Origin: Burkholderiales bacterium
GTDB taxonomy: Bacteria; Pseudomonadota; Gammaproteobacteria; Burkholderiales; Casimicrobiaceae
Reading direction: 5' to 3'
NCBI GenBank assembly: GCA_025354165.1
Contig: JANXNI010000016.1
Coordinates: 1 to 64,000 of the forward strand
DNA length: 64,000 bases
In this document: in pieces, positions 17,420 through 26,215 of the stretch
How positions within the stretch are numbered: the first letter of the stretch is position 1
Layout: every line of letters starts with the position of its first letter
The notes under the pieces: model-generated
Databases searched by the model: none
What the model was told of the DNA's origin: nothing
What the model saw: only the letters and a program-made list of their open reading frames with translations
Made by a program: the position numbers and the translations under genes

Positions 17420-19210
17420 CTACGCCAGCGCCAGTTCCGTATCCATCAACGGCTTCAAGCCCGCACGCGCGGTGATCGCGCAGCTCTCGATTTCTGGCAG
17501 CAATTTTGCAAAGTAGAAACGCGCCGTCTGCAATTTCGCCTTGTAGAAATCGTCACCCGAATCCTGTTTTTCCAGCGCGATTTTGGCCATTTTTGCGAAC
17601 CAGAACGCAAAGACGGTATGACCGGCAACGCGTAAGTAATCAACGGCAGCTGCGCCCACAACTTCCGGCGTTTTCTGTGCGATGCTGCCGATTTCAAACG
17701 TCAGCGTAGCCCACAATTCAGCGGCCTTCAACATCGGCTCGATGAACTCTTTCATCGCCTCGATGCCTTCACATTCCTCAGCGAAATCTTCCATGATTGC
17801 GCCCAATTTTTTGAGCGTCGCGCCGTTGTTGCCGAGCACTTTGCGCCCAAGCAAATCGAGCGACTGGATCGTATTGGTGCCTTCGTAAATCATGTTGATG
17901 CGCGCATCGCGAACGAATTGCTCCATGCCCCATTCGGCGATGTAGCCGTGACCGCCGTACACCTGCATGCAATGCGAGGTGGCGATCCAGCCGTTGTCGG
18001 TGATGAAAGCCTTCACGATCGGGGTCAGTAGCGCGACCATGTCGGCGCATTCTTTGCGCACGGCTTCGTCCGGGTGATTGAGTTCCTTGTCGATCAGCAA
18101 CGCGCAGTAAAGCGACAGCACGCGGCCGCCTTCGGCGTAGGCCTTGGCGGTCAGCAGCATCTTCCTGACATCGGGATGCACAATGATCGGGTCTGCCGGT
18201 TTGTCGGGATATTTCGGGCCCGCCAACGAGCGCATTTGAATGCGATCTTTTGCGTACGCCAGCGCGTTTTGATACGCCACTTCGGTCAGGCCTTGTGACT
18301 GCATCCCGACGCCGATACGCGCGGCGTTCATCATCACGAACATGGCGTTCAGACCCTTGTTCGGCGCGCCCACCAGCCAGCCCTTGGCGCCGTCGAGCGC
18401 AATCTGCGCAGTGGCGTTACCGTGGATGCCCATCTTGTGCTCAAGACCGGTGCAGAAAATCGTATTGCGAGCGCCCAAAGATTGATCCGCGTTCGGGATG
18501 AATTTCGGCACGATGAACAGCGAAATTCCTTTCGAGCCCACCGGCGCATCAGGCAGGCGCGCGAGCACGAGGTGAACAATGTTGTCGGCCATATCATGCT
18601 CACCGGAGCTGATAAAAATCTTGTTGCCGGTGATCGTGTACGAGCCGTCGGCATTGGGCTCGGCCTTCGCGCGCAGCATGCCAAGATCGGTGCCGCAATG
18701 CGGCTCGGTCAGGCACATCGTGCCGGTCCATTCACCACTCGTAATTTTCGTCAGATACGTCGCCTTTTGCTCGGGCGTGCCGTGCGCGTGCAGGCACTCG
18801 TACGCGCCGTGCGTGAGGCCCGGATACATCGCCCACGCCTGATTGCCCGAGTTCCAGAATTCGTAGCAAGCCTGATTGATCACGAGCGGCAGGCCCTGAC
18901 CGCCGTATTCCGGGTCGCACGACAATGCCGCCCACCCGCCATCAACAAACTGCTTGTAGGCCGCTTTAAAACCGGTCGGCGTCTTGACTTCATGCGTCAC
19001 GTTATCGAGCTTGCAGCCTTCAACGTCGCCCGAATGATTGATCGGCAACAACACGTCGGAGGCGAACTTGCCGCCCTCTTCCAGAATCGCCATGATCGTG
19101 TCGAGATCGTTTTCAGCGTGCTTAGGCAGCGCTTTCAGTTCCGCAGGCACATCGAGCAGCTCTTCCATCACAAAACGCATATCGCGCAGCGGGGGGGTGT
19201 AGGTCGGCAT
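17420..19210 (-). CDS. Acyl-CoA dehydrogenase with C-terminal Acyl-CoA_dh_C domain
   Basis: This is a 596-residue FAD enzyme for alpha,beta-desaturation of acyl-CoA. The start at 19210 (MPTYTPPLRDMRFVMEE) has GGAGAG just upstream and matches the family N-terminus. The middle domain holds MCLTEPHCGTDLGMLRAKA and ITGNKIFISSGEHD. The C-terminal helices contain YGGHGYIAEWGMEQFVRDARI, then IYEGTNTIQSLDLLGRK with the catalytic Glu region. The extra ~120-residue C-terminal domain (MEDFAEECEGIEAMKEF onward) identifies the long proteobacterial subtype related to AcdA/FadE-like enzymes. It is monocistronic as far as visible. Confidence 0.95.
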   Translation of the reverse strand: MPTYTPPLRDMRFVMEELLDVPAELKALPKHAENDLDTIMAILEEGGKFASDVLLPINHSGDVEGCKLDNVTHEVKTPTGFKAAYKQFVDGGWAALSCDPEYGGQGLPLVINQACYEFWNSGNQAWAMYPGLTHGAYECLHAHGTPEQKATYLTKITSGEWTGTMCLTEPHCGTDLGMLRAKAEPNADGSYTITGNKIFISSGEHDMADNIVHLVLARLPDAPVGSKGISLFIVPKFIPNADQSLGARNTIFCTGLEHKMGIHGNATAQIALDGAKGWLVGAPNKGLNAMFVMMNAARIGVGMQSQGLTEVAYQNALAYAKDRIQMRSLAGPKYPDKPADPIIVHPDVRKMLLTAKAYAEGGRVLSLYCALLIDKELNHPDEAVRKECADMVALLTPIVKAFITDNGWIATSHCMQVYGGHGYIAEWGMEQFVRDARINMIYEGTNTIQSLDLLGRKVLGNNGATLKKLGAIMEDFAEECEGIEAMKEFIEPMLKAAELWATLTFEIGSIAQKTPEVVGAAAVDYLRVAGHTVFAFWFAKMAKIALEKQDSGDDFYKAKLQTARFYFAKLLPEIESCAITARAGLKPLMDTELALA

Positions 19211-19454
19211 GGTTCTCTCCTGTTGCAACAACGAAAAATGTGTTGAGGCGGATTGTGCCGTACGACCGCTTAAATTTATCGTTTGAAACGTCTATTTTGC
19301 GACTTATAGAGACGTCGCTCTAGGTCGCGTTGCAATCTGGCGCGCGGGTGAACTAAAAGCATGTGTCAGTTAGCATCGCTCGCTGACTTCACCTGACGCC
19401 TCCGAACGCTGAAGCTACCGAGGCTAGGGCGTACAGCGCCAACACACTTCATTT

Positions 19455-20732
19455 ATGACCGCTCGACGCCCTGCCCTTAGTCTGCTTGCGTTCGCTGTGA
19501 TTGCAGTGAGTTTTTTGTACTGGCTGCCGAATCGCATGCTGGCCGATGAATACGTGCACTGGCCGCAGGCGTTGCGCTTTGCGCAAGGTGACTGGCGCAT
19601 TGATCCCTGGTTGTCGACCTGGCCGACGATGAATCTAGTGGTCAGCATCGTGTTGCGGCTGTTTCATTCGGAGCAGCTCTGGCTCGGTCGAATGACAATC
19701 GTTGCGTTTGCGCTGCTAGCCTTCACTGGCTTTGTGCGACTGGCTAACGCGGTACAGGGATCAACGCGTCCCGACAAAGCAGCGCACCAAACCATGGCGC
19801 TGCAATGGTTTGCAAGCCCGCTCATGCTGCTCGTGTGCACGGTGGTGTACACCGACGTTCCAGCACTGGCAGCACTGATCTGGGCTGCCGTTGGCGTAGC
19901 GCAGCGCCGACGGGGGCTCTTTCTGGTTGCCGGAATTGCGACGGTGATGTTTCGACAGACGCATCTGCTGTGGTTCGCCACTTTGCTGGCATGGCACCTG
20001 GCGCTTGCGTGGCGCACGCAGTCTGCTGAGAGCGAGCGATCAGCTGGCGCGACGCTGGCGGCTGTTGTGAGTGAGGAGCGCTGGATACTTGCGGTCAGCG
20101 CAATCGCCGGGATGGGTTGGCTGGCGGTAGTCGCGACTACCGGCGGAATCGCATTCGGGGCGAACACGCAGCCAGCGCATCACATGAGCCTTGGTGGTGT
20201 ACCCAACGAATTTTTCGCAATGGCAGTTTGGGCGACGGCGTTCGCCCCGCTCACGCTCGGTACGCTGGTAGTGCGGTCACTCAACCAGACAAATCGTCGG
20301 GACGCGCTTACAGCAGCGTCGGTGGCTCTCGCTGTGATTGTTCTGGCCACATTTTTCTTCGAGGCGAGACTACCGGGCAATACACATCCCTCGACCATGA
20401 TGCTCATCCGAAATCAGGCACTGCAGACGCTGAACGATCCGATGGGCCGTGGGTTGATGCTTGCATTGTGCACAGCGGGCGCGATGGCGTGGTGGCACAT
20501 GAATTTCGCACCGCTCATGCAACCGTTCAAGGGGTGGTTTTTTGTGGCGGGCGCGCTGTATCTCTTGCCATTCGCACTGATTGAGCAGCGTTACTACTTG
20601 CCCATGTTCACGCTGCTCGCGGCGTTTCGTGTGCCGCTAAAGGCACGATGGGAATGGGCGCAGCTTGCGTGGTCGCTCGCGTTGTCCGCCGTGTTGCTTT
20701 ATCACGTCGTAAACAAGGGCAGATTTCTGTAG
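19455..20732 (+). CDS. Polytopic membrane protein resembling DIE2/ALG10 glucosyltransferases
   Basis: This is a 425-residue protein with roughly ten hydrophobic helices. Near the N-terminus ADEYVHWPQALRFAQGDW and DPWLSTWPTMNLVVSIV resemble the lumenal DE-x-FH-PQAQ-x-Y and WDP-x-ITT-PG motifs of eukaryotic ALG10. A late ALIEQRYYLPMFTLL is like the family's E-x-RY-x-LP segment. ALG10 is a GT-C enzyme using a polyprenyl-phosphate glucose donor; the bacterial role would be glycan glucosylation in the periplasm. The assignment rests on remembered motifs only. It could also be another GT-C family. The 244-bp upstream gap (19211-19454) shows no clear feature besides a weak inverted repeat. Confidence 0.6.
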   Translation: MTARRPALSLLAFAVIAVSFLYWLPNRMLADEYVHWPQALRFAQGDWRIDPWLSTWPTMNLVVSIVLRLFHSEQLWLGRMTIVAFALLAFTGFVRLANAVQGSTRPDKAAHQTMALQWFASPLMLLVCTVVYTDVPALAALIWAAVGVAQRRRGLFLVAGIATVMFRQTHLLWFATLLAWHLALAWRTQSAESERSAGATLAAVVSEERWILAVSAIAGMGWLAVVATTGGIAFGANTQPAHHMSLGGVPNEFFAMAVWATAFAPLTLGTLVVRSLNQTNRRDALTAASVALAVIVLATFFFEARLPGNTHPSTMMLIRNQALQTLNDPMGRGLMLALCTAGAMAWWHMNFAPLMQPFKGWFFVAGALYLLPFALIEQRYYLPMFTLLAAFRVPLKARWEWAQLAWSLALSAVLLYHVVNKGRFL

Positions 20733-20794: not shown

Positions 20795-20821
20795 AAAAAC
20801 GGGGCCGAAGCCCCGCTTTTG
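20795..20821. terminator. Intrinsic terminator after the pnp 3' copy
   Basis: AAAAACGGGGC-CGAA-GCCCCGCTTTTG is a short GC stem with a tetraloop and A/T tracts on both sides, so it could stop transcription from both directions: the ALG10-like gene on the plus strand and the pnp-derived segment on the minus strand. It closely resembles the terminator at 22690 behind the intact pnp (same CGAA loop and flanks), suggesting both came from one ancestral pnp terminator. Confidence 0.8.
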
Positions 20822-20837: not shown

Positions 20838-21215
20838 CTAAGCTTGCGGGGCATCCGGCGCAGGTGCAGCGCCCTCGCTGGCAGAAGCGGCCTGATCGGC
20901 CAGCGGCGCTTTAATCGACAGCTTGACGCGGCCTTTGTCGTCGAAGCCGAGCACTTTGACTTTTACGATTTGGCCAGCTTTGAGATAGTCAGTGACTGCG
21001 TTCACACGCTCGTTGGCAATCTGCGAAATGTGCAACAAACCGTCGCGACATGGCAGCAACTGGATCACCACGCCGAAGTCCATGATGCGGATGATCGGGC
21101 CCTCGTAGACACGGACCACTTCAACTTCAGCGGTGATGCCGTCGATACGCTTTTTGCATTCAGCGAGGTCTTCACCATTTGGCGACGCGATGGTGATCGT
21201 GCCGTCGTCTTCCCT
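20838..21215 (-). pseudogene. Duplicated 3' end of pnp (S1 domain and tail)
   Basis: The 125 codons starting at 21215 match residues of the PNPase C-terminus: [52 protein letters not shown] and [16 protein letters not shown]. There are only scattered substitutions (for example AVI to VVI, LLPG to LLPC) until the Ala-rich tails diverge. The corresponding part of the intact gene is 22787-23154. The RNase PH and KH parts are absent. The frame is still open, and a GTG at 21119 could start a free ~93-residue S1-domain protein, so it may be expressed rather than dead. Confidence 0.85.
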
Positions 21216-22502
21216 TTAAGGTGCCACCGGCATTAAACAAGTCCCCGACAAATACGGCTCAATCGTCGTCCAGTCTCGACGCAACGCCCCGCCTGGAATC
21301 GGCAACCCTGCCGTCACAGCAGCGCCTCTAAAGCCCAGCATCGCACGCAGTACGATCATGCCGTCTGTAGCCGCGAGCGGCGCACCGCCGCTGCCGTCGA
21401 TGTCCAGATCAAGTGTGTTCAGATAATTAGTGATGACACCATCGGTCTTACGCGTGGCTGTGACTGGGAACGCGGGCAGCGCTGCTACCAGCGGTGGGCC
21501 GCTGATACCCAGCATATGACGGATCAGCAATTGCCCATCAATGAGGGGTTTGTAAGCGGCGTCGCCGTCAATGTCCAGGCGGCACAGCGGGGCGACGATA
21601 CTGATGCTTTGCGTGACCTGCGCGGCAGGGTTATACGGCCCAACACCGGCCTGATTGGCGGCGACAGTGCACACGCCCACACCCAGCATTGTCACGGTCG
21701 AGCCGACAACACTGCAAACGGTTGTGGTCACGGGCACAGAAAAAATCACCGGATTGCCCGAAAATCCGCCGACTGCGGATACGCTAAAGGTTCTGCCTGT
21801 GCTAAATGTCAGCGGTTCGGGGTTTGGGCCAAAGACGATTGTCTGCGCGCCTGTAGGCCCCGCAGCGACGTTGATTGTGGCCGTACCGAACTTGTTACAA
21901 GGCGTAGGAATGGTTGCCGCGCAGGCACCCGTCGAACCGCCATCATTGATCGATATGGTGATTTGAAATCTGACACCGCTTCCGCCGTGTTTGATATCCA
22001 GTGATAGCGTCGACATGATTTGGTTGATCGAACTGATGGGCGCCTTGGCTGTGAAACCGTTACTGTTAAGTCTCACCCATCCCTCGTCTCCGGGGACACC
22101 AAAGGAGACGACGTTATTAGCGCCCGCGAAGTTATGTTGAACCGTAAGGTCAACGTTTGCGTTTTGCGAGTCAACATCGCGGACGTTAAAACCGATGGAC
22201 GTCGCAGCGTCTCCGCTGATAAGCCGAAGACCCACGGATTGCGTCTGGTCAGTTAAGTATGGGGCGCTAGATCCGCCAGCCACCCATTGGAGTTCGGGGG
22301 CTTGGTTGATCGTTTGTGCGCTGGCCATCATTGACCAGAGTAGGCCGAAGGACAGCAATAGCGTGGCCGTCCACGAAGGCCGAACCCATCGGTGCGGCCC
22401 GCTTACACGTAACGTATCAAACAGAGCAGGCGCCGGATAAGCGTCTAACGCAACACCTGGATTCGCCGATACAAAACGCTTATTGGAGACAAAAATACGC
22501 AT
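21216..22502 (-). CDS. Secreted protein with C-terminal dockerin-like calcium-binding repeats
   Basis: This is a 428-residue protein. A hydrophobic segment near residues 46-61 (TLLLSFGLLWSMMASAQT) looks like a signal peptide after an unusually long N-terminus, so the true start may be further in. The middle is beta-rich (residues 65-300). The end, bracketed by Cys residues, has two EF-hand/dockerin-like repeats: LDIDGDAAYKPLIDGQLLIR near 305 and LDIDGSGGAPLAATDGMIVL near 362, each followed by a helix ending in LG-x-x-G. Its TAA stop directly abuts the pnp 3' copy in the same frame. It lies between intact pnp and that copy. Confidence 0.75.
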   Translation of the reverse strand: MRIFVSNKRFVSANPGVALDAYPAPALFDTLRVSGPHRWVRPSWTATLLLSFGLLWSMMASAQTINQAPELQWVAGGSSAPYLTDQTQSVGLRLISGDAATSIGFNVRDVDSQNANVDLTVQHNFAGANNVVSFGVPGDEGWVRLNSNGFTAKAPISSINQIMSTLSLDIKHGGSGVRFQITISINDGGSTGACAATIPTPCNKFGTATINVAAGPTGAQTIVFGPNPEPLTFSTGRTFSVSAVGGFSGNPVIFSVPVTTTVCSVVGSTVTMLGVGVCTVAANQAGVGPYNPAAQVTQSISIVAPLCRLDIDGDAAYKPLIDGQLLIRHMLGISGPPLVAALPAFPVTATRKTDGVITNYLNTLDLDIDGSGGAPLAATDGMIVLRAMLGFRGAAVTAGLPIPGGALRRDWTTIEPYLSGTCLMPVAP

Positions 22503-22580
22503 GAGGAATACTAGGGAAGGTTAAATCAAGCCGTGAAAATTTGACGATCAATGGGTCTCAGCGATGAGAAAGCGTCTGAA

Positions 22581-22594
22581 GGGCATCTCTAAAG
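22581..22594 (+). repeat. Solo terminal-repeat remnant of the MITE family
   Basis: GGGCATCTCTAAA is a 13-bp exact match to the inner-strand reading of the right end of the MITE at 8924-9066, which reads GGGCATCTCTAAAAATTC. Nothing further of the element is recognisable. It lies in the 284-bp gap between the dockerin-like gene and pnp, where I see no other gene. It could be a relic of an insertion near the pnp rearrangement. Confidence 0.4.
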
Positions 22595-22689
22595 TCTTGA
22601 ACGGCCTGGAAGTGGAAAAGCAGCAATGGTCTGCCCGACCTCGCGCTGAGCGCTGGCGTCGAGAGAGCATGCAGCGTACAACGAAGCGC

Positions 22690-22720
22690 AAAAAAAACGG
22701 AGCCGAAGCTCCGTTTTTTA
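22690..22720. terminator. Intrinsic terminator of pnp
   Basis: AAAAAAAACGGAGC-CGAA-GCTCCGTTTTTTA: a 6-7 bp GC-rich stem with a CGAA loop. On the minus strand the stem is followed by an 8-T run, about 65 bp after the pnp stop codon. This is the classical form. Confidence 0.88.
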
Positions 22721-22786
22721 TTCATGGTGCGACGCGCTCACCACGAACGGTGTCGCGTGCCACACGCTTGTCGTCAGGTCAAACTA

Positions 22787-24922
22787 CTAAGCGTCACCCG
22801 ATGGCGCAGCGCTCGCGTTAGCCGCAGCCGCCTGCTCTTCAAGCAGCGCTTTCATCGAAAGCTTGACGCGACCCTTGTCGTCGAAGCCGAGCACTTTGAC
22901 TTTTACAGTTTGGCCTTCTTTGAGGTAGTCGGTGACGGCGTTCACGCGCTCATTCGCAATTTGCGAAATGTGCAGCAAACCATCGCGACCTGGCAGCAAC
23001 TGGATCACAGCACCGAAGTCCATGATGCGGATGATCGGGCCTTCGTAGACCTTGCCCACTTCAACTTCAGCGGTGATGCCGTCGATGCGCTTTTTGCATT
23101 CTGCGAGGTCTTCACCGTTCGGGCTGGCGATGGTGATCGTGCCGTCGTCTTCGATGTTGATCTGGCAATGCGTTTCTTCCGACAGCGCACGAATCACAGC
23201 GCCGCCTTTGCCGATCACGTCACGGATTTTTTCCGGATTAATCTTGAAGGTGATCATGCGTGGCGCGAAGGCGCTCATCTCGGTGCGCTCGTGCGGCATG
23301 GCCTCTTGCATGATGCCGAGGATGTGTTTGCGCGCCTCGTAGGCTTGCGCCAGCGCAACGCCCATGATTTCTTTGGTGATGCCCTGGATTTTGATGTCCA
23401 TTTGCAGCGCGGTGATGCCGCGATCGGTACCGGCCACTTTGAAGTCCATGTCACCCAAGTGATCTTCGTCACCGAGGATGTCGGTCAGCACCGCGAAGCG
23501 TGTGCCTTCCTTGATCAAGCCCATCGCGATACCTGCGACCGGTGCTTTCAACGGCACGCCTGCATCCATCATGGCGAGTGCGCCGCCACAGACTGACGCC
23601 ATCGACGACGAACCGTTTGACTCGGTGATCTCGGACACGACACGCATCGAATATGAGAAGTCTTTCTCATTAGGCAACACTGCAACGAGTGCGCGCTTGG
23701 CGAGACGACCGTGGCCGATTTCGCGACGCTTTGGCGTGCCTACACGACCGGTTTCGCCGGTGGCGTACGGAGGCATGTTGTAGTGCATCATGAAGCGGTC
23801 ACGGTATTCCCCGGCGAGCGCGTCGATCATTTGCTCGTCCTGCTTGGTGCCGAGCGTGGCAACGACCAGCGCCTGTGTTTCGCCGCGCGTAAACAACGCC
23901 GAGCCGTGAGCGCGTGGCAGCACGCCAGTGCGGATCGAGATTGGACGCACGGTGCGTGTGTCACGACCGTCAATGCGAGGCTCGCCGCGTAGGATTTGCT
24001 CGCGAACGGTTTTCGCTTCGAGCGCAAACATTTCGTTACGGATGTGGTTCTTGGTGGCGCTGTTGGCGTCGGCTGGGATCAGCACGGCTTCAGCGGCAGC
24101 GGCCACTTCTTTGAGCTTGGCGCTACGAGCGCTCTTCGATTTGATTTTGTACGCTTCGTCGTAGCCGGGGCCAGCGATTTCAACGATCTTCGCGACGAGT
24201 GCTTCGTCCTTCGCTGGAGGCTGCCAATCCCATGACGGTTTGCCCGCGACTTCGCCCAGCGCCATGATCATGTCGATCACGGGTTGTTGCTGTGCCTGGC
24301 CCCACCAAATCGCTTCAAGCATCACGGCTTCGGGCAGTTCAGTCGCGTCCGATTCCACCATCATCACGGCGGTTTCAGTCGCAGCAACGATCAGATCCAT
24401 TTCCGAGGTTTTGCGCTCGGTCATGGATGGATTCAGGATGTACTGACCGTTGGCGTAACCAACGCGTGCAGCACCAATCGGCGCGGCGAATGGCACGCCA
24501 GCGAGGTACAGTGCAGCAGACGCGCCGATGATCGCGGGGATGTCGGAATCGATCTCAGGATCGAGCGACATCACGGTCGCGATGACCTGAATTTCGTTGT
24601 AGAAACCTTCCGGAAACAGCGGGCGAATCGGGCGATCAATCAGGCGCGAGGTGAGCGTTTCTTTTTCTGAAGGACGGCCTTCACGTTTGAAAAATCCGCC
24701 GGGGATTTTGCCTGCGGCGTAGGTCTTCTCCTGATAGTCAACGGTCAGCGGAAAGAAGTCCTGGCCTTCTTTAACGGTCGTCTTGGCAACGGCTGTGACG
24801 AGCACGACGGTGTCGCCATAACGCACGAGCACGGAAGCGTCGGCTTGACGGCCAATTTCGCCAGTCTCAAGGGTTAAGGTGTGTGCGCCATATTGAATGG
24901 ACTTGGTGGTTGCGGTCAGCAT
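22787..24922 (-). CDS. pnp: Polyribonucleotide nucleotidyltransferase (PNPase)
   Basis: This is a 711-residue exoribonuclease that degrades RNA 3' to 5' by phosphorolysis, usually within or beside the degradosome. The two RNase PH domains are visible ([40 protein letters not shown]; later [20 protein letters not shown] and [18 protein letters not shown]). An alpha-helical linker lies between them, a KH domain has [19 protein letters not shown], and an S1 domain has [20 protein letters not shown]. Length is standard. It lies downstream of rpsO as in most proteobacteria. The 3' part has a second copy at 20838-21215. Confidence 0.98.
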
Positions 24923-25086: not shown

Positions 25087-25359
25087 TTACTTACGCAGGC
25101 CGAGCTTTTCGATCAGCGACTGATAGCGTGCGCGATCCGTATTTTTCAGGTACGCGAGAAGTGCACGACGGTTGTTAACCATCTTGAGCAGGCCGCGACG
25201 GCTGTGGTGGTCTTTAGTATGAACTTTGAAGTGGTCGCCGGCCAAAAAGTTGATGTTGGCGGTCAACAGTGCGACCTGCACTTCGGTCGAGCCGGAATCG
25301 TTCTCGGAACGACCGTGCTCTTTAATGATGGCTGCGGATTGTGCTGGCGTCAGTGCCAT
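25087..25359 (-). CDS. rpsO: 30S ribosomal protein S15
   Basis: This is a 90-residue protein of the standard length. It binds the central domain of 16S rRNA and also 23S rRNA bridge B4. Landmarks are the N-terminal [37 protein letters not shown], then [20 protein letters not shown] and [12 protein letters not shown]. It is followed by pnp after a terminator, the conserved gene order. A likely promoter is seen at 25480-25510. Confidence 0.98.
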
Positions 25360-25510: not shown

Positions 25511-25657
25511 CCTTGCGGAGGCACAGCAGCATGACGAAACTTTATAACTTTTCGCTGTATTAACGGGTAGTCATGGGTTACGCGTCACAAATAACGAAAG
25601 TCAACTTTCGAAAAAATGTCGATTCAGCCCCTATGCAACCGTGCTTTCAGCAAAAAG

Positions 25658-26215
25658 CTACTTCTTTTCTGGTTCTTTCACTTCGGGCAAGAAAAGCCCT
25701 GCGCAATCGATCTTGCTAAACCCAAAATCGGCACCGCGACGGCTCTCGCCCTGCTCGAAACGCAATGTCGCGACCAGGTCGGTCTCATTCTTCTTTTCGT
25801 AACGCAGTTTGGTAGTGACTTCGCCTTCCTTTACCGAAAACGCGACCACTGAATTGGCGATCGTGTCCAGTGTCATCGTCACTTCGGGTCGTCCCGCTGG
25901 ACGCAACCAGAGCTTGATCGAACCCCCTTCGTCGTACATGCGCATGGCTTCCGAGGTGACGGTCTTGCCATCAAGGTAAGTGAGTCCGACGCCCATAACG
26001 CTGCCGCCGCGCGGCGAGAACCACGCTTCGTTAATCGACGAGCCGTCGCGCGCCGATTTGCCCTGCCAGCAGCCAGCGAGCCAGTTGAGTTGATTGACCG
26101 AACCCTTCGCCGGTTCGGCTGGCGTCACTGGTACCTGAGAGACTTGTGCCGCGACTGCTGCCGACAAAAAAGTGACGGCTAGAGCGGCGGTGATCGTGCG
26201 ATGATTTGAAGTCAT
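25658..26215 (-). CDS. DUF6265-like exported protein
   Basis: This is a 185-residue protein with a signal peptide (AALAVTFLSAAVAAQ). The mature part starts with LNWLAGCWQGKSARDGSSINEAWFSPRGGSVMG, the typical opening of the DUF6265 lipocalin-like family, followed by paired strands such as GSIKLWLRPAGRP and FSVKEGEVTTKLRYEK. The function of the family is unknown; a periplasmic binding barrel is the likely fold. It ends a three-gene minus-strand operon after dsbB and the prolyl oligopeptidase (15-bp gap). Confidence 0.82.
   Translation of the reverse strand: MTSNHRTITAALAVTFLSAAVAAQVSQVPVTPAEPAKGSVNQLNWLAGCWQGKSARDGSSINEAWFSPRGGSVMGVGLTYLDGKTVTSEAMRMYDEGGSIKLWLRPAGRPEVTMTLDTIANSVVAFSVKEGEVTTKLRYEKKNETDLVATLRFEQGESRRGADFGFSKIDCAGLFLPEVKEPEKK

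Follow-up and report, generated by a model that had tools for sequence, protein, structure and literature searches.

In the stretch of DNA analysed here (64,000 nucleotides in all, called the window below), the pnp gene is followed by one passenger gene and then by a second, 5'-truncated copy of its own 3' end. We put at roughly 55% the probability that this arrangement arose when DNA of a related species, carrying its own pnp end, entered the cell and recombined into pnp, with the old end being displaced downstream, where it is decaying. The two ends are as divergent as those of different species, the downstream one is under relaxed constraint, two congeners show a second event at pnp, and what follows pnp differs among the relatives. 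The window comes from a draft assembly of 97 contigs with a contamination estimate of 2.3%, and lies on a contig of 150,598 bp. Its own genome is designated G000, the nearest sampled relative G001, and the other compared genomes by further G-numbers.

Organization of the pnp locus

Read along the minus strand, the order is rpsO, pnp, a hairpin with a UUCG loop, the passenger gene, 3 bp, the truncated copy (copy B) and a second UUCG-loop hairpin, beyond which there are an opposing DIE2/ALG10-like gene and then an acyl-CoA dehydrogenase (ACAD) gene. The gene rpsO (25087..25359, minus strand, 90 aa; the name is that of the first-pass annotation) is the upstream neighbour of pnp, and relatives of it are found upstream of pnp in several genomes. 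The pnp gene (22787..24922, minus strand) is intact, encoding 711 aa with the Pfam domains RNase_PH (twice), RNase_PH_C, PNPase, KH_1 and S1. Its last 121 residues with the stop (copy A, 22787..23152, minus strand) are the direct-repeat counterpart of copy B (20838..21212, minus strand). When the flanks of the passenger were compared, the direct repeat was aligned between 20863-21212 and 22803-23152, with 86.6% identity over 350 bp (E 1e-120), and Pfam recognizes the S1 domain in copy B (6e-14, residues 34-101 of 124) as in pnp itself (3e-17), which confirms the repetition of the S1-coding end that the first-pass annotation had placed at 20838-21212. The reading frame of copy B is open through 124 codons to its own stop, as had also been stated there, the first in-frame start being a GTG at 21119, i.e., codon 32, on the border of the S1 domain.

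The passenger gene (21216..22502, minus strand) encodes 428 aa, secreted-looking by eye and with two C-terminal dockerin-like repeats, and its stop is 3 bp from copy B. Terminator-like hairpins, each with a T run, were found by folding at 22690..22719 after copy A and at 20800..20815 after copy B (both minus strand), with fold z values of -3.3 and -2.4, respectively; the region 22680-22730(-) behind copy A folds at -17 kcal/mol, and a consensus terminator scan listed the second hairpin on the other strand only. Both terminators had been described as having CGAA loops; the hairpins are indeed there, but on the transcribed (minus) strand the loop reads UUCG. The GGGGC-UUCG-GCCCC stem of the copy B hairpin is also present behind pnp in G001, G005, G012, G013 and G014. 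The DIE2/ALG10-like gene (19455..20732, plus strand, assigned by Pfam), lying between copy B and ACAD, has no relative in the compared pnp loci, and the conserved downstream neighbour (17420..19231, minus strand) is what we take, from its sequence, to be ACAD.

Divergence and constraint of the two copies

The codon comparison of the copies that the first-pass annotation had proposed gave, over the tail, a dS of 0.51 and a dN of 0.084, i.e., a dN/dS of 0.17. Since this dS is near the 0.47 of the pnp body between the window and G001, the two copies are about two species apart. Over 116 codons, 19 of the 47 differences are replacements, whereas a copy that was neutral from the start would predict about 63%, and the model of in-place duplication with a neutral remnant, which sets the ratio of the intact copy at 0.06, gives P = 0.0015. 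As to the position of the changes, which had been described as lying mainly towards the very end, they are denser there, with 19 of the 54 gap-free differing columns falling in the last 54 columns, but most of them (35) are in the 309-column core.

Copy B carries six unique replacements in the 103-codon core, with bases absent from the other eleven sequences of the panel, while ten of these eleven have 0-2 and that of G014 has 4; the panel comprises 12 of the 18 aligned sequences, with G002, G009, G012, G016 and the B copies of G005 and G012 omitted. In view of these replacements, copy B does not look maintained by selection, which had been offered as one reason for its open frame. The between-species-like divergence together with the six replacements makes a fresh in-place duplication unlikely. 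Our reading is that A and B would have diverged as working genes in two lineages and then met, after which B would have been released from selection. Relative to one another the copies are old, unlike the decay of B.

The tree built on the pnp body pairs the window with G001 as sisters (support 0.997), and in the tail tree it is copy B that groups with G001 (0.953 by FastTree, 67/93 by IQ-TREE). The tail topology with A and G001 together is rejected (p 0.037), and that with A and B as sisters is not (p 0.35). Along the tail, G001 tends to match A as far as about column 2080 and B from there on. A fit with one split accounts for 34 of the 46 gap-free sites (permutation p 0.0045), for 22 of 29 (p 0.044) when only sites with both letters present in other relatives are taken, and for 42 of 54 (p 5e-5) when gap columns are counted, where the signal weakens with column filtering and sites of the same codon are not independent. 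At most informative sites of columns 1910-2077 G001 is equal to A, and contrary sites occur near the 5' edge, at 1797-1802 and 1869-1880. The pattern suggests, with moderate support from the site comparison, that the tail is mosaic from a single crossover within it, and with the ends possibly being mosaic, "old" and "new" need not equal B and A cleanly.

Second pnp event and variable cargo in the relatives

A second copy of the pnp tail is present in 3 of the 17 genomes of the genus (G000, G005 and G012), and among the same 17 no pnp tail was detected in G003 and G004. The remaining 47 genomes of the family give one match in 38 and none in 9; in an order sample of 399 there is a match in 381, with two matches in G000, G005 and G130; and a second pnp tail is absent from all 80 named pnp loci (at least five from the genus; 65 of the 80 covering at least 3 kb downstream).

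In G005 and G012 the 3' copy of pnp comprises ~160 codons (KH and S1), and 8.2 kb of cargo lies between the copies, containing an AraC-type regulator and a propeller protein with, by eye, a dockerin-like-looking C-terminus. The duplication is ~480 bp long in these genomes versus ~375 bp here, and the start points also differ; this is a separate second event at pnp in two congeners, of the same form. For the copies of G005 the dN/dS is 0.05-0.09 and the in-place neutral-remnant model gives P = 4e-9, and the locus is on a single contig of 4.47 Mb. It had been proposed in the first-pass annotation that a segment with its own pnp 3' end inserted into pnp, restoring the gene and displacing the old end; the ratio of 0.17 and the P value obtained above for A and B, together with the second event, speak for this. 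It had also been held that an S1 copy without the dockerin-like gene would count against it; in G005 and G012 the pnp copy occurs without this gene, but with the above cargo, which includes a gene whose C-terminus looks, by eye, to be of the same type.

G005 and G012 share a block of 14.2 kb at 99.0% identity (L053 2089-16253 vs L061), which begins 21 bp ahead of the pnp start and runs to where the compared G012 piece ends, versus 89% and 91% in two matched pieces upstream of this block, so that the filled locus seems to have been exchanged recently between species. Within their tail, 14 consecutive sites are swapped reciprocally between the copies, and thus the copies seem to recombine, with a misassembly in G012 as the alternative. 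As a separate observation, the pnp 3' end of G006 is split over contigs C626 and C143 (L054, L055), which overlap exactly by 141 bp inside the tail; the split, resembling a fork of the assembly graph, is suggestive of a concealed further duplication, and no more than suggestive.

The space behind pnp is a cargo site with contents that vary. ACAD follows pnp directly in G016, with no ORF called between, and in G014 the distance from pnp to ACAD is 0.8 kb with one 153-aa frame, while the gap holds chaperone-usher-looking genes in G008 and G013 and other genes in G002, G007 and G010 (names by sequence reading). In G001 different short reading frames are present in the 1.2 kb examined behind pnp, and thus, of the empty site that was to be looked for in close relatives, G016 and nearly so G014 give examples, but the nearest relative is no clean empty site.

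The passenger gene

The secreted dockerin-like gene that had been noticed between the copies is present there, but "dockerin-like" refers to a motif only, as the 428-aa protein matches no Pfam or NCBIfam family. Among 18 members of the family, three match Dockerin_1 (PF00404) at E<=1, the best with 0.0094, and the passenger itself is not one of them. The D..DG-type pattern is kept across 18 aligned C-termini, where D71, D84 and R90 are invariant; a single-sequence structure model of the dockerin-like C-terminus has a pLDDT of 34 and gives no usable fold. Cohesin (PF00963) is found in none of the 17 genus genomes. At E<=1e-20 the passenger has two relatives in the other 16 genus genomes (in G011 and G012), neither of them on the pnp-bearing contig, and its best relatives in the genus have 32-41% identity with partial coverage; the donor locus was not found in the genus genomes. 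We guess that the passenger is secreted and that its C-terminus serves in sorting or binding. About 50 dockerin-like ORFs are present in the sampled stretches of the window's own genome (51 rows with one gene twice, the pattern being not always C-terminal), and several of the proteins were seen to be beta-propeller or Ig-like.

Similar remnants at other genes

In stretch L103 of the same genome, the 3' end of a gene that we take to be of the VOC family is repeated after a dockerin-like gene, with the remnant starting 4 bp past the stop of that gene. Contig C53 carries a second VOC copy, and 0.34 kb behind it lies a relative of the remnant-following gene, with no dockerin-like gene between; in G002, G007 and G011 the VOC gene is followed by what is presumably a threonine-dehydratase-like gene. 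It is noted that L103 (on C69) and L107 (on C53) have two diverged VOC genes, with dockerin-like and propeller genes near the contig ends, which has the appearance of a serial insertion array. Three gene ends recur behind inserts in G005, namely those of an EamA transporter gene, of RlmL and of a gene which we assume to be NTF2-like, and the inserts of this genome at genes other than pnp include PIN, nucleotidyltransferase and BrnA-antitoxin genes. Across the genus, some of the remnants at other genes adjoin dockerin-like genes and some toxin-antitoxin genes; with such different cargo, a dockerin-like gene is not required for the process. A possible duplication of RlmL in G003, whose assembly has 7% contamination, consists of two pieces that do not overlap and lie on separate contigs.

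The dockerin-like gene was to be looked for as an insertion next to other gene ends, and the VOC remnant is such a case, but other cargo is found elsewhere. Flanking repeats surround 6 of 48 dockerin-like ORFs versus 8 of 251 other ORFs, counted in 40 stretches that were picked around dockerin-like genes, with overlapping window pieces and a few ORFs double-counted. By reading, gene ends are involved in four of the six dockerin-like rows (the window, L097, L101 and L103) and in three of the eight others (L099 and two rows of L098), the other rows being an interspersed repeat (L089), paralogues (L108) and short or unassigned repeats (L072, L074). With the biased choice of stretches, the double counts and the mixed types of repeats, we reject the gene-end remnant as a hallmark of dockerin-like genes.

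We also sampled evenly, taking 20 evenly spaced 20-kb stretches (400 kb) per genome. These samples contain no further candidate in the window's own genome, three in the congener G005 and none in the outgroup G057, where a looser first scan had given one N-terminal match of 45.6%. The repeat-rich outgroup G103 has 30 candidate lines in six loci, many of which resemble repeat arrays; among the 30, L206 (44 aa, 100%) may be genuine. With 0, 3 and 0 candidates and G103 unclassified, these samples show no genus-wide excess.

By eye, a noncoding interspersed repeat of ~60 bp, with a GGGGGCT-type core and a GTCGAT element, is present in the window at 25598-25670 and seems recurrent in its genome; it is also seen 3' of several genes in L092, L104 and L089, and explains the flanking repeat of L089.

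Discussion

Based on the explanation that we prefer, the donor DNA would consist of the last ~375 bp of the pnp of a related species, its terminator and the passenger. On meeting the resident pnp this DNA would recombine through the common 3' end, in the simplest form as a small circle with one RecA-type crossover inside the tail. The pnp gene would then remain whole, its tail now being partly foreign, the passenger would end up behind it, and a 5'-truncated pnp end would be left downstream, losing constraint. What we infer here is that the donor was foreign, that its DNA was circular and that it integrated by a single crossover. The mosaic split near column 2080 is the swap that is expected from one crossover inside the tail, and ComEC is present in all 17 genus genomes. 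It is conceivable, though we doubt it at present, that the ends of ordinary core genes are general landing pads in the genus, where small DNA molecules with a donor end and a passenger (dockerin-like or toxin-antitoxin) would integrate by one crossover; if this is true, a passenger could spread between species without an enzyme of its own and with the host gene unbroken.

Another course to be considered is one-sided insertion of linear donor DNA, i.e., homology-facilitated illegitimate recombination, in which a homologous crossover within the body of pnp would be combined with end joining past the passenger and B would be the whole resident tail. It is consistent with B rather than A pairing with G001 in the tail, with the passenger ending 3 bp ahead of the remnant and with the presence of ComEC; moreover, in the excerpts available of the two papers, such recombination is known for three transformable species (PMC3240628) and one-sided insertion is proposed for V. 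cholerae effector arrays (PMC5361080). However, B would be expected to be resident-like throughout, and in columns 1910-2077 it is A that G001 equals at most informative sites; the cases described in the former excerpt usually lose roughly what they gain (PMC3240628); and Ku is found in 1 of the 17 genus genomes, though the reaction need not use Ku. We regard one-sided insertion as a possible course, but not a probable one. Insertion with long target duplication, where the resident tail would be copied as the passenger inserted and B would decay afterwards, agrees with the sister grouping of A and B not being rejected (p 0.35) and with the difference counts in 7 of 11 intact-remnant pairs, but the remaining four pairs go against a neutral copy (P 0.0015 for pnp here, 4e-9 for pnp in G005, 0.013 for a DMT transporter and 0.028 for the NTF2-like gene, uncorrected for 11 tests and with the assumed intact-copy ratio of 0.06), and we consider it improbable.

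It is still harder to explain the locus by an assembly chimera or a local segmental duplication in one lineage, which we regard as very improbable: the genome is a draft with some estimated contamination (2.3%), but the contig of the window is 150,598 bp long and the same form of event is present in G005 on one contig of 4.47 Mb, and by a segmental duplication the passenger should recur after copy B, where no such repeat is found. Finally, an integrase-type site-specific element using the pnp 3' end as attachment site could restore the 3' end of its target gene, as lambdoid phages do at icd, but the insert here is one gene, the four scanned of the seven called ORFs in the G005 insert match no integrase family, and the duplications differ in length (~375 and ~480 bp) and in start point and are made of non-identical copies; such an element is extremely improbable here.

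The explanation by recombination of a donor pnp end has counterparts among known systems, which we compare on the basis of the excerpts available of three papers. In the C-terminal displacement of Rhs, incoming homologous DNA displaces the 3' end, which is kept downstream as a fragment (Jackson et al. 2009, PMC2935791), and a circle with a single crossover is argued there to be necessary for displacing the Rhs end without deletion (PMC2935791); linear DNA in E. coli may be ligated to circles, integrating by single crossover (Amarir-Bouhram et al., PMC3240628). As in Rhs, the core of pnp is kept, its 3' end is presumably replaced by a foreign one, and an old end lies downstream, truncated and in the same orientation. 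Unlike in Rhs, where the tip is non-homologous and alters the protein, the new end of pnp is orthologous, conserved and housekeeping, and the gain is the neighbour gene; the gene is pnp with homologous ends, not an rhs gene with a variable non-homologous tip. For the displacement of T6SS effector-immunity genes in V. cholerae, one-sided insertion was proposed (Kirchberger et al. 2017, PMC5361080); there, too, the incoming DNA is anchored by homology on its upstream side, old 3' parts and genes end up further back in arrays and exchange is between species, but the anchor and the displaced genes are part of the competition system itself (PMC5361080). By analogy, the pnp case would work like Rhs or effector displacement, yet by its gene it belongs to none of them.

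Insertion with long target duplication, reportedly described by the Kobayashi group, leaves the inserted gene flanked on both sides by long target repeats in direct orientation; its copies start identical, whereas the pnp copies here are orthologue-like in divergence. In the minimal mobile elements of Neisseria, the gap between conserved genes holds different cargo in each relative. This is similar to the variable cargo behind pnp, but exchange via two homologous flanks leaves no truncated gene end.

Narrow all-terms literature searches, in a collection with few subscription papers, found no earlier report of a partial duplication of pnp with an insertion, none on partial gene duplication combined with illegitimate recombination and natural transformation, and none on toxin-antitoxin insertion beside a truncated copy. 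Gene gain of this form is familiar mainly from Rhs and effector loci, and the present locus suggests that it also takes place at a housekeeping gene. The end left behind documents the event, in that its silent differences point to a foreign donor and its replacements give a rough age. Should such events prove frequent, gene ends truncated next to cargo could be read as traces of an enzyme-free transfer of genes from one species to another.

As to the circular form of the donor, we saw no circular molecule. The circular-looking contig C31 (L097, 3903 bp) has identical 122-bp ends, but these are common to the start of contig C81 (L104), and a free circle is rejected for it. C31 and C81 are probably parts of a tandem array, with the unit consisting of a gene that we take to be acetyltransferase-like and a dockerin-like gene.
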